From positions 1 to 24,106 of IMG/VR virus record IMGVR_UViG_3300033153_001426: DNA of 24,106 bases; one strand, given 5' to 3'. Shown piece by piece: positions 2,884 through 18,635 of the stretch. The notes under the pieces were generated by a model. It was not told the DNA's origin, made no database searches, and was given only the letters and a program-made list of their open reading frames with translations. Every line of letters starts with the position of its first letter. Positions within the stretch are counted from its first letter, which is position 1. A program made the position numbers and the translations under genes. Origin of the DNA: a virus.

Positions 2884-2975
2884 ATAAGAATACGCACGTT
2901 TAGTGCTTATGCTGCCGCCGAGCAAACGGGCGAATATGGACGACGCATTTACGGTCGCATTTCATGAGGTAAATT

Positions 2976-3014
2976 ATGACTACACTAGGAGAGGCTTTAG
3001 AGCCTGAAACCTGA
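2976..3014 (+). other. Probable true 5' end of scaffold gene, out of frame
   Basis: ATG 2976 has a good Shine-Dalgarno (GAGGT at 2966-2970, 5-nt spacer) and encodes MTTLGEALEPET before a TGA at 3012-3014. Skipping the single T at 3012 joins it to the scaffold frame (EQETETVESEVEES...), and the codon pattern GAA-ACC-GAG-CAA-GAA-ACC-GAA-ACG is then continuous. The open frame downstream has only a GTG at 3031 with no Shine-Dalgarno. This is either a one-base insertion (real or an assembly error) or a +1 frameshift at ACC-TGA. Confidence 0.6.
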
Positions 3015-3030
3015 GCAAGAAACCGAAACG

Positions 3031-3684
3031 GTGGAAAGCGAAGTCGAAGAGAGTGACGAAGCACAGGGCGAAGAACAAGAACCCGAATCTGATAAAGAGG
3101 AGGAAGCGGAGCCGCCAGCCGTAGAAGAAGTGAAGTCGATTCCAATCGCGGCACTGAAAGACGAAAGACAAAAGCGTCAATCAGCCGAGGCGGAACTTTC
3201 TAAATACAGACAGAAGTACGAAAAAGACATTGATGCACCCGATCCAGTTGATGATCCTGATGGCTTTAAAGAGCACGTCAGAAAGACTGTGATTGGTGAA
3301 GAGCGCACTAAGCGGTTTGATGCATCAAGAGAAACAGCGCTAGAAACTTATGATGACTACGAGAAGATGGAAACTACTTTCAAATTCCTCGCAAGTCAGG
3401 ATGAGACTTTAGTCACTAATATTAATGCTAATACTGACCCGTCTAAATATGCTTACGATACAGCGAAAGCTTATCTACAAGCGCAAAAGGATGAGTTAAG
3501 AGCGGAAATACTTGGTGAAGCTGGTGTGCAACCTGTTAAGAAAGAGCCGACCAAAGCTGAATTGCGTAATAAGTCTGCCGTTGCAGTGCCTAATTTAACT
3601 AATGCTACAGCCGCTGGTGCTAACTCAGTACCTGTGGTGAAAATGGATGATGTGGACGAAATGTTCGGGGATTCTGTATTCTAG
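3031..3684 (+). CDS. Head scaffolding protein
   Basis: Temporary internal scaffold that guides coat assembly and is released on DNA packaging. The main open frame gives 217 aa with a very acidic N-terminal third (Glu-rich repeats), a charged helical centre (for example KDERQKRQSAEAELSKYRQ) and a C-terminus ending in DDVDEMFGDSVF. This composition, and the position between portal and coat, is typical of phage scaffolds; primary sequence is poorly conserved in the family, so position carries much of the argument. GTG 3031 lacks a ribosome binding site; translation more likely initiates at ATG 2976 and shifts +1 (see the separate entry). Transcribed with portal and coat. Confidence 0.78.
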   Translation: MESEVEESDEAQGEEQEPESDKEEEAEPPAVEEVKSIPIAALKDERQKRQSAEAELSKYRQKYEKDIDAPDPVDDPDGFKEHVRKTVIGEERTKRFDASRETALETYDDYEKMETTFKFLASQDETLVTNINANTDPSKYAYDTAKAYLQAQKDELRAEILGEAGVQPVKKEPTKAELRNKSAVAVPNLTNATAAGANSVPVVKMDDVDEMFGDSVF

Positions 3685-3702: not shown

Positions 3703-4860
3703 ATGACTAGTTCATCAATACATAGTGACAATCAGGTCACTAAATTTAGAAAAGAGGTTCGCCGCGAATATGTTCGTGGTGGGCGTTATGAGCCATATAT
3801 CGGCAATAACTCAAACTCGATTATTCAAGTAACTACCGAGAGTAAAAAAACATCAATCCCATTGGTTGCAAAACTATCTGGTAGCGGTGTTCGTGGTAGT
3901 ACACAACTTAGTGGTAATGAGCAACCACTTGCTAATTTCGCGGCAACATTACAACCAACATACCTTAGACAAGGTGTATTGATTGATAATGAGGAAAACG
4001 AAAAGGCTGAATTTGATTTGTTTAGTGAAGCTCGTCCAGCACTTATGAACTGGATGATGGAACTTAAACGCGATCAAATTACTCAAGCGTTTGGTGCTAT
4101 TGAAGCTGGTGGAACATATTACAATTATGGTGGTGGTGTTGGTACAGGTTCAACAGGTGCTACGGCTGCGTCTGGTGCTAATATGGATACATGGTTAACT
4201 AATAACGTTGACCGCGTGCTTTATGGCTCTGCTAAGGGTAATACAACTTCTGGGGATCATACTACTTCTCTTGCTACTATCGATACTACAAACGATAAGC
4301 TAGACACTGGTATGCTTTCTCTTATGAAGCGTATGGCTGCTGATGCTGATCCACTTATTCGCCCAGTTACACTAGATGGCGATGAGCCTTTCTATGTGTT
4401 CTTCGTTGGTAAGTATGGCTTCCGTGATCTTTCAGTTGATACAGTAATGACTGCGGCAAATCGTGACGCACGTACTAGAGGTCTTAATAATCCTTTGTTT
4501 AAAGGTGGTGACTTGATGTGGGATAATATCCTTATCAAAGAAGTTCCTGACTTAGACAAGTTTATTGATGGAACTGGTGCTGGTGCTTATCAAGGTAGCT
4601 GGGGCGCAGGCGCAACAGGCGACTCACTCGCAACTGGTGGTAATTCATCAAGTCGTGTTGGTGTCGGCTTCCTTTGTGGTGCACAAGCGCTTGGATTTGG
4701 TATTGGTAAAACAGCAGACTTTAAACGCCGTAAAGAGGATGATTATGATCACCTTAATGGTGTTGCGGTGTCTGCTAAACATGATATCAAAAAACTGTTC
4801 TATAACGGCAAGCAACATGGGCTTTTGACAAGTTACCATAGTGCTTCTGTTGACTCTTAA
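3703..4860 (+). CDS. Major capsid protein (N4 gp56/DUF4043-like)
   Basis: Main shell protein of the head. 385 aa, starting at ATG 3703 with an AAAGG ribosome binding site about 8 nt upstream. The N-terminal region (VTKFRKEVRREYVRGGRYEPYIG, then a GNEQPLANF... stretch and a DLFSEARPALMNWMMELKRD helix) resembles the N4 gp56-type coat family rather than P22 gp5. The centre has a Gly/Thr/Ser-rich segment (about residues 139-156) that may be a surface loop. A domain with YVFFVGKYGFRDL and a conserved-looking ILIKEVPDL follows. Position directly after the scaffold supports the call. The combination of a P22-like portal and tail with an N4-like coat would be a mosaic, to be confirmed by structure prediction. 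Confidence 0.8.
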   Translation: MTSSSIHSDNQVTKFRKEVRREYVRGGRYEPYIGNNSNSIIQVTTESKKTSIPLVAKLSGSGVRGSTQLSGNEQPLANFAATLQPTYLRQGVLIDNEENEKAEFDLFSEARPALMNWMMELKRDQITQAFGAIEAGGTYYNYGGGVGTGSTGATAASGANMDTWLTNNVDRVLYGSAKGNTTSGDHTTSLATIDTTNDKLDTGMLSLMKRMAADADPLIRPVTLDGDEPFYVFFVGKYGFRDLSVDTVMTAANRDARTRGLNNPLFKGGDLMWDNILIKEVPDLDKFIDGTGAGAYQGSWGAGATGDSLATGGNSSSRVGVGFLCGAQALGFGIGKTADFKRRKEDDYDHLNGVAVSAKHDIKKLFYNGKQHGLLTSYHSASVDS

Positions 4861-6865: not shown

Positions 6866-8271
6866 TGGCAACTATTGATGTAAATATCACTGGTGGAACT
6901 TATAAACATAAGTCGTTGCCGCTTTCAGCTCAAGTTACTCGCAATTGGTTTCCACAGAAACAAGATAACGCAGCAGAAAAAAGCCCGTATATATTAGAGA
7001 GCTTTCCAGCATTAAAGCTATGGACTGCCACAGTTGGTAATGCTGACCGTGGTATGTTTGAGCATAAAGGCTTATTGTATAAGGTAACAGAAACAACTCT
7101 ATATAGTATTGATTCCAATAAAGTAGTTACGGCACTTGGCACAATAACAGGAACTGAAAGATGTATTTTCTTTGGTCTTGGTGATAGCGTTTGTGTTGTT
7201 ACTGATGGTTCTGTGTATGAGTGGGACGGCGCGACATTAACACTGGCGACTGATGTTGATTTCGAAACTCCGAACACTGGTGCTAGTTTAAACAATAGAG
7301 CTATTTATGACGGTGACGATGCTAGATTTGGAGTTTCTAATGTTGGTGATCCTTTGGCTATTGATGGTCTTAATTATGCGACTGCTGAAAGTAACGCAGA
7401 TAACCTGTTGAGGGTATATGTTTTTAATCAAACTCTTTATCTGATGGGCGAAAAAACCATAGAAACATGGTGGAATTCAGGCGTTGGAGCACCGCCGTTT
7501 GATAGAATAGAAGACGGTGTGATGCCAATTGGTTTAGCTGCGATTCATTCAGTGGCTCAAAATGATAAAATTATGTATTTCCTCGCAGATGATAATCAAG
7601 TTTATGCTGTTATAGGCTCAACTGCGCAAGCTGTAAGCCCACATGCTATAAATAGAGCTATTAGTGAATACACAACCGTTAGCGATGCTATAGGTTGGAC
7701 TATGAATCTACAGGGGCAAGACGTTTATGTTTTGACATTCCCTATTGAGGGTAAGACATGGATATACCCAGAGGGCGGGCAATGGTTTGAATGGTCAAGC
7801 GGTAGTGTTGGCTCACGTAGTATAGCAAATTCATATGTATTCGCTTATAGAAAACACCTGTTAGGTGATTTTGCTAGTGGTAATATTTACGAACTTGATT
7901 TTGATAGTTACACAAATAACGGCGAGACTATCATACGAACACGTGATACAGCGCCATTACATGGTGGCTTATTCGGCGCGGCTGGTAAGCGAATAGAAAT
8001 GAACCGTTTTGAGCTGATCTTAGAAACTGGAAATGGTTTAATAACAGGTCAAGGGTCTGATCCTGTGATAATGTTGTCATTTAGTGATGATGGCGGGCGT
8101 ACTTTTGGTAACGAATATTGGGGTAAAACTGGCAAACTTGGAGAGTTCCAATGGAAAGTAGAATGGTTTGTGTTGGGTAGTTTTACAGAAAGAATTATAC
8201 GGATAAAAACATCTGATCCAGTTTATTATTCGATACATTCGGCAGTTATGGATATAGAAATAGGGATTTAA
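6865..8271 (+). CDS. Tail hub / packaged-DNA stabilisation protein, P22 gp10-like
   Basis: 468 aa. In P22, gp10 extends the channel below gp4 and holds the spike and needle. The N-terminus ends a strand with TRNWFPQ, then PYILESFPALKLW and GNADRGMFEHKGLLYKV: the typical opening of this family (a peptide claiming the mature particle, a LxxxPG/A-like turn, then R G - G - LY-V). Repeated short strand motifs (TTLYSID, GSVYEWDG, QVYAVIG, GNIYELDFD) suggest a beta-propeller body. The next strands include ..WWNSGVGAPPFDRIEDGVM. Starts on TAATG, coupled to gp4. Family call fairly secure from pattern plus synteny. Confidence 0.77.
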   Translation: MATIDVNITGGTYKHKSLPLSAQVTRNWFPQKQDNAAEKSPYILESFPALKLWTATVGNADRGMFEHKGLLYKVTETTLYSIDSNKVVTALGTITGTERCIFFGLGDSVCVVTDGSVYEWDGATLTLATDVDFETPNTGASLNNRAIYDGDDARFGVSNVGDPLAIDGLNYATAESNADNLLRVYVFNQTLYLMGEKTIETWWNSGVGAPPFDRIEDGVMPIGLAAIHSVAQNDKIMYFLADDNQVYAVIGSTAQAVSPHAINRAISEYTTVSDAIGWTMNLQGQDVYVLTFPIEGKTWIYPEGGQWFEWSSGSVGSRSIANSYVFAYRKHLLGDFASGNIYELDFDSYTNNGETIIRTRDTAPLHGGLFGAAGKRIEMNRFELILETGNGLITGQGSDPVIMLSFSDDGGRTFGNEYWGKTGKLGEFQWKVEWFVLGSFTERIIRIKTSDPVYYSIHSAVMDIEIGI

Positions 8272-18314: not shown

Positions 18315-18488
18315 ATGACAGGATGGAAAACAGTAGTATTTAATATAATTGCGGCGATTATGCCAGTGCTTGAAGTAAGTGGAGTAGAGCTAGGGCTTGA
18401 GGGTAATCTTTTAGCTGCTTATGCTTTTGGTATTACAGTTATTAATTTAGCGTTGCGCTTTGTTACAAAAACACCAGTGTTTAAGTAA
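18315..18488 (+). CDS. 57-aa two-TM protein, holin candidate
   Basis: ATG 18315 to TAA 18488, AAGGA about 7 nt upstream, 1 nt after the lysozyme stop. Two hydrophobic segments, VVFNIIAAIMPVLEVSG (7-23) and LLAAYAFGITVINLALRFV (32-50), are linked by a short acidic loop; the N-terminus is MTGWKT and the C-terminus TKTPVFK. Such small two-TM proteins with GWKT...F at the start and R.VT.TP at the end recur next to endolysin genes in alphaproteobacterial phages. It most likely makes the inner-membrane lesion that frees the lysozyme. Its stop codon is inside the first 22-bp repeat unit. Confidence 0.66.
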   Translation: MTGWKTVVFNIIAAIMPVLEVSGVELGLEGNLLAAYAFGITVINLALRFVTKTPVFK

Positions 18489-18635
18489 CGTTTGCGCGTG
18501 ATATAAGTAACGTTTGCGCGTGATATAAGTAACGTTATGAAGTTAAGACGAGTTTAATCAGTTGTATCAAGATGTTGCTATAACTTTTATATAAGTAAGT
18601 TTTTGACAGGATATAAGTAATGACAAATATTAGCG
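18482..18635 (+). repeat. 22-bp phased direct-repeat array (about 7 units)
   Basis: Two identical 22-bp units (18482-18503 and 18504-18525, beginning TAAGTAACGTTTGCGCG) are followed by a third with 11 matching bases (18526), two strongly degenerate units (18548, 18570), then two recognisable units (18592 and 18614) whose TAAGTAA cores are still in 22-bp register: TAAGTAA starts at 18482, 18504, 18526, 18592 and 18614. At unit joints the sequence TGATATAAG reads as an extended -10 (TGnTATAAG). The first unit supplies the holin-candidate stop; the last supplies ATG 18620. A promoter array, operator array or replication iterons are possible. Confidence 0.72.

Follow-up and report, generated by a model that had tools for sequence, protein, structure and literature searches.

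A probable sporadic lesion breaks a phage scaffold gene just downstream of a conserved leader with two tandem pseudoknots

The scaffold gene of a podovirus-like phage contig is most probably broken after its 12th codon by a sporadic lesion and not by a programmed frameshift. The DNA analyzed here, called the window below, is a 24,106-bp IMG/VR virus record. The gene begins at ATG 2976, just 3' of a conserved leader with two tandem pseudoknots, and the lesion would be a slip of sequencing or assembly or else a genuine defect of this gene copy. The leader most likely would control scaffold translation by folding next to the ribosome binding site, and it would possibly be an operator to which a virion-assembly protein binds.

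Gene context and the start of the scaffold gene

The scaffold gene lies between the genes for the portal and major coat proteins, with terminase (phrog_38) and head closure (phrog_578) genes among the other neighbors, and the cyanophage Pam1 has the same gene order with an annotated scaffold in the same place. When the scaffold protein was compared with PHROG, no family match was obtained; the name "scaffold" is given from the position of the gene and from homology to the open reading frames (ORFs) that occupy this position in relatives. The region used as a nucleotide query found no match in phages and plasmids, and the scaffold protein used as a query found no relative among viral contigs and phages; relatives were therefore gathered via the coat and portal proteins. 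The features at the start of the gene and its two neighbors are as follows.

959 to 2812, + strand: portal protein gene (phrog_156, E 4.6e-76)
2966 to 2970, + strand: Shine-Dalgarno sequence GAGGT of the scaffold gene, read directly; the same TTCATGAGGTAAA stands in the relative L047
2976 to 3014, + strand: scaffold ATG and first 12 codons, MTTLGEALEPET, a frame cut by TGA 3012-3014
2987 to 2994, + strand: internal Shine-Dalgarno-like sequence AGGAGAGG, 14 nt before ACC 3009, 17 nt before the TGA and 9 nt before CTG 3004
3001 to 3684, + strand: open frame with the rest of the scaffold gene, bounded on its 5' side by TAG 2998-3000
3003 to 3016, + strand: imperfect tandem repeat of 7-bp units, CCTGAAA/CCTGAGC, at the frame break, read directly
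3703 to 4860, + strand: major coat protein gene (phrog_334, E 1.9e-56)

Some loci carry extra genes between portal and scaffold (L022, 5050-5544; L025, 4374-4868; L018, 2690-3910), the insertions being a homing-endonuclease-like ORF and a 415-codon ORF. In the window, a terminator-like imperfect inverted repeat, CGGACATAACCCC...GGGTTACGTCTG, follows the portal gene at about 2845-2885, just 5' of the leader, and a 22-bp unit, AAGTAACGTTTGCGCGTGATAT, is repeated about 2.5 times in tandem among short ORFs at about 18484-18535.

The first frame reads ATG ACT ACA CTA GGA GAG GCT TTA GAG CCT GAA ACC and then meets TGA 3012-3014. The first common start codon in the scaffold frame is GTG 3031, located 17 nt past this stop and without a Shine-Dalgarno sequence; CTG 3004 is also in the scaffold frame, 3' of the strong Shine-Dalgarno-like AGGAGAGG. 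Direct reading of the letters thus bears out the original prediction on two points, namely, that GAGGT and ATG 2976 open a 12-codon frame running to the TGA and that the scaffold frame itself lacks a good start. The further proposal, that loss of one base fuses the two frames, is workable, but the frames can be rejoined in several ways, and a small deletion is also possible.

Judged from sequence, the scaffold truly starts at ATG 2976 because the distance to the leader is conserved, the codon usage is of the coding type, and the leader-to-ATG segment is nearly identical in L047. The leader lies 18 nt from ATG 2976, compared to mostly 8 to 20 nt in relatives with two clear units, and this conserved spacing fits a start at 2976, not one at 3004 or 3031. 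From leader to ATG, L047 and the window (CGCAATTCATGAGGTAAACTATGACT and CGCATTTCATGAGGTAAATTATGACT, respectively) match almost base for base, and the leader and Shine-Dalgarno sequence of the window align with those of the relatives, supporting ATG 2976 as originally called. The codon log-odds of the 12-codon frame is +10.2, compared to +7.9 ± 4.1 for true in-frame pieces of 12 codons and −12.5 ± 8.3 for off-frame pieces; hence, the frame looks like coding sequence, and coding-type usage passes to the scaffold frame immediately past the break.

The N-terminal motif of the relatives, approximately LDDVFDD, scores −1.5 in the window peptide and 0.3 to 18.9 in the relatives. Homology of the 12-residue peptide to this motif was not significant (0.157 in peptide shuffles), and 90 of 449 ATG peptides of the window match the motif at least as well. 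Because the peptide is too short and divergent, motif homology is no proof of the start. Similarly, a hidden Markov model (HMM) of the relatives gives 189 bits to the fused scaffold and 184 bits to the protein started at GTG 3031, a gain of only about 5 bits that is not decisive. At the other end, the window scaffold frame (3001-3684) has the C-terminus DDVDEMFGDSVF, with DDLFADSPF as an example from the relatives; this end resembles the N-terminal DDVFDD motif, so a shared binding motif may be present at each terminus of the scaffold protein.

Nature of the frame break

In each of the 71 coat relatives that differ in their scaffold ends (30 to 76% coat identity), the scaffold gene runs in a single frame from an ATG start. 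The same is true of 61 of 63 further distinct loci, where the single-frame scaffold has an in-frame start adjoining the leader; these loci came from the leader-pattern search, and a few of them are the same phages as in the coat-relative set. The two exceptions are L240 and L221. In L240, an A inserted at position 2825, within the region for the scaffold N-terminus, creates an in-frame TGA. The frame is intact in its sibling L186, which differs by 26 substitutions over 4,096 bp (99.34% identity); the inserted A is the only indel between the two in 4.1 kb. A lesion like that of the window thus occurs in one phage copy and not in its sibling. L221 has its leader and scaffold start tandemly duplicated near 3622, with no shift.

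From these comparisons we infer that the lesion is an error or a rare mutation. The stray base of the original prediction therefore holds up as a sporadic indel, backed by the 71 single-frame relatives and by the L240/L186 pair, while its identity as one extra base is less firm since a deletion would also serve. Several observations weigh against a sporadic lesion. The break lies outside any homopolymer, where errors are commonest. In the part of the window that could be compared with relatives (to about 8.8 kb), no other frameshift was found, which indicates that errors are not widespread in the contig. The LDDVFDD-like motif is weak or missing, and a simple one-base repair would still yield an unusual N-terminus. 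Finally, among 349 full-length hits to the coat and portal genes of these loci (199 for coat and 150 for portal, counting duplicates), a single one was broken; breaks near the scaffold N-terminus, like those of the window and L240, may be somewhat commoner than this background, although this excess is only a hint because it consists of two cases, one of them being the reason for looking. The coat gene of L021 matches in two frames near 7380, a possible frame break. A recent duplication of 7 bp is unlikely as the cause of the break in the window, as 2 of the 7 bases are different between CCTGAAA and CCTGAGC.

A small deletion, instead of a one-base insertion, could have removed the N-terminal motif and shifted the frame. 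We consider this somewhat unlikely; as it is a variant of the lesion reading, the weight given to it overlaps with that given to a sporadic lesion. The missing or weak motif is consistent with such a deletion, as is one DNA alignment that opens gaps at the break exactly where the relatives hold the motif, and the start-to-core distance, 61 residues, falls toward the lower limit of the values in relatives (49 to 115, median 73). This distance is still inside the relatives' range, however, and LGEAL stands in register with their L-x-D-V-F, whereas a second alignment puts the gaps elsewhere. Of these two, we infer the one-base lesion.

It is improbable that the break is a mutation fixed in the lineage, with a shorter scaffold made by internal initiation or re-initiation at CTG 3004 or GTG 3031. 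The placement of AGGAGAGG 9 nt 5' of CTG 3004 would suit internal initiation, a protein begun at GTG 3031 still fits the profile of the relatives with its 184 bits, and one other contig, L240, has its break in that region of the gene too. In P22, the scaffold tolerates N-terminal truncation, which would also favor a short product. On the other hand, CTG starts are rare, GTG 3031 has no Shine-Dalgarno sequence, and the product would lack the N-terminal motif kept by all relatives.

A programmed +1 frameshift at ACC-UGA of the RF2 or antizyme type, which would make the scaffold and set its dose as the original prediction proposed, is highly improbable, and we reject it as a real feature because the arrangement is unconserved and carries the wrong mechanistic marks. 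To our knowledge, ACC-UGA is not a bacterial shift site. Two overlapping frames of coding type do meet at the UGA, with the Shine-Dalgarno-like AGGAGAGG upstream of ACC-UGA, and the NCC-UGA form recalls the antizyme site UCC-UGA and the shift-prone CCC-UGA (PMC5009743). Among relatives, however, conservation of the UGA arrangement was absent: the two-frame arrangement was found in none of the 71 coat relatives and in 1 of the 63 further loci, namely, L240, whose sibling L186 is intact. Stimulation of a +1 shift requires a Shine-Dalgarno-like sequence 3 nt from the shift codon (PMC5009743), whereas AGGAGAGG ends 14 nt before ACC 3009. A shift from ACC to CCU would, as deduced from the sequence, leave the Thr-tRNA mispaired at the first position. 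The 96 nt downstream fold no better than shuffled sequences (z −0.23), arguing against a 3' structure. The stop codon itself is expected from composition, since, of the 466 stops that single-base insertions uncover in this stretch, 450 (approximately 97%) are UGA; UGA at the break is thus no clue to recoding. The sporadic lesion that we favor matters little in itself, and it warns that a one-off lesion at a metagenomic scaffold start can mimic recoding.

The tandem-pseudoknot leader

Upstream of the scaffold ribosome binding site, the window contains the following leader features.

2894 to 2906, + strand: putative small hairpin GCAC-GTTTA-GTGC on the 5' side of the leader, read directly; similar hairpins occupy this position in L047 and L038
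2910 to 2932, + strand: leader pseudoknot 1, with stem TGCT/AGCA, loop GCCGCCG (2914-2920) and 3' strand CGGGCG (2927-2932)
2936 to 2957, + strand: leader pseudoknot 2, with stem ATG/CAT, loop GACGACG (2939-2945) and 3' strand CGGTCG (2952-2957)

The window (2910-2957) and most relatives have two tandem units of the H type. Each unit follows one plan: a stem of 3 to 5 bp carries a 7-nt loop G-N-[CGCC]-G and is followed, after a short spacer, by CG-[GGCG], which base-pairs with this loop; pseudoknot 2 of the window has CGAC/GTCG as a variant of CGCC/GGCG. In both units, the 3' strand pairs back to the loop, and the stem pairs as well as the loop pairs covary across relatives. When loop and hexamer alone decided which units were picked, leaving the stem free, 3-bp stem cells were paired in 99.0% of cases, compared to 59.6% after shuffling, and double-sided stem changes numbered 101, compared to 24.6. 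Stem covariation was 0.986, compared to 0.204 in shuffled data and 0.01 to 0.12 when the partners were slid by 1 to 3 columns. Conversely, with units picked by the stem and CGG only, loop and hexamer paired in 114 of 114 units. The pairing variants include CGCC/GGCG, CGAC/GTCG, CACC/GGTG, TGCC/GGCA, CGTC/GACG, TACC/GGTA, and AGCC/GGCT, and nine CGCC/GGTG units pair via G-U. By cmsearch, both units jointly scored 53.2 bits at 2909-2960, the window itself being a member of the model. By covariation, the leader is a structured RNA in leader position. No second copy of it was found within the window. In L060, L063, L069, L076, and L102, an extra hairpin with a GCCGCCG-like loop lies upstream of the scaffold leader and follows CGGGCG on its 5' side, like a third unit in the opposite order.

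The element is shared by well over 100 sequences of related phages. A scan of all viral contigs for the exact pattern of its commonest form, which used no protein information, returned at least 119 stretches; among the matches listed, at least 94 are followed within 6 kb by a coat gene of the window's coat family, and most of the others by a scaffold ORF or the contig end. The leader is also present before the scaffold gene of the cultured phages Pam1, Pam5, and Pan3 and of CBW1004C-Prop1, with 27 to 32% coat identity, and it was sought but not found in KPP25 and Vibrio phage douglas 12A4. Its position is fixed before the scaffold or coat start. In about a dozen of the matches listed, e.g., L130, L133, L136, L139, and L142, the element stands directly before the coat gene and not the scaffold gene. 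Searches with Rfam 15 covariance models, STAXI included, gave only unrelated hits at chance level for the window leader (E ≤ 10) and for eight relatives (E ≤ 1). On the basis of Rfam 15 and the searches of this analysis, the pseudoknot pair is seemingly undescribed.

Because the leader adjoins the ribosome binding site, its position together with its covariation suggests translational control of the scaffold or coat. Keeping the scaffold in step with the coat is a long-standing question for tailed phages. The scaffold of P22 represses its own synthesis, which makes autogenous binding by scaffold or coat protein an attractive possibility. We propose, as a reading that is evenly balanced in our judgment, that the leaders form an undescribed family of structured RNA whose tandem H-type pseudoknots act as a putative switch matching scaffold or coat synthesis to capsid assembly, e.g., by binding free scaffold or coat protein. 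The dose of scaffold, which had been ascribed to the unsupported +1 shift, would have a better candidate for its control in this conserved upstream RNA, an element that the original prediction did not mention. If this is true, a compact covarying RNA at the scaffold or coat start would be a definite cis element for scaffold-coat balance.

Comparison with known systems

The window resembles the RF2 gene (prfB) in that a short first frame ends at UGA, the second frame is at +1, and a Shine-Dalgarno-like sequence lies upstream. It differs in the distance of that sequence (3 nt in prfB and 14 nt in the window), in the codon before the stop (CUU and ACC, respectively), in the stop context (UGAC and UGAG), and in that the arrangement of the window is without conservation; furthermore, the P-site codon of prfB re-pairs in the +1 frame (CUU to UUU), whereas ACC of the window would mispair at its first position. 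Compared to antizyme, in which a UCC-UGA site is joined by a 3' pseudoknot stimulator, the window has ACC-UGA and lacks a downstream fold, as given by the z value above.

The order of terminase, portal, scaffold, and coat is shared with the P22-type block, and the window coat likewise belongs to phrog_334. Unlike that block, however, the scaffold gene of the window is frame-broken, and P22 has only 13 bp between its portal and scaffold genes, too short for a leader of the window type. Pam1, whose coat is 32% identical to that of the window, likewise has its scaffold gene between portal and coat. For the leader, the nearest architecture known to us is that of the STAXI RNA motif (RF01728). STAXI is also a short pseudoknot repeated in tandem (PMC2864571); it is located near SSB, topoisomerase, antirestriction, and integrase genes of enterobacteria, whereas the window-type leader stands before the scaffold or coat gene.
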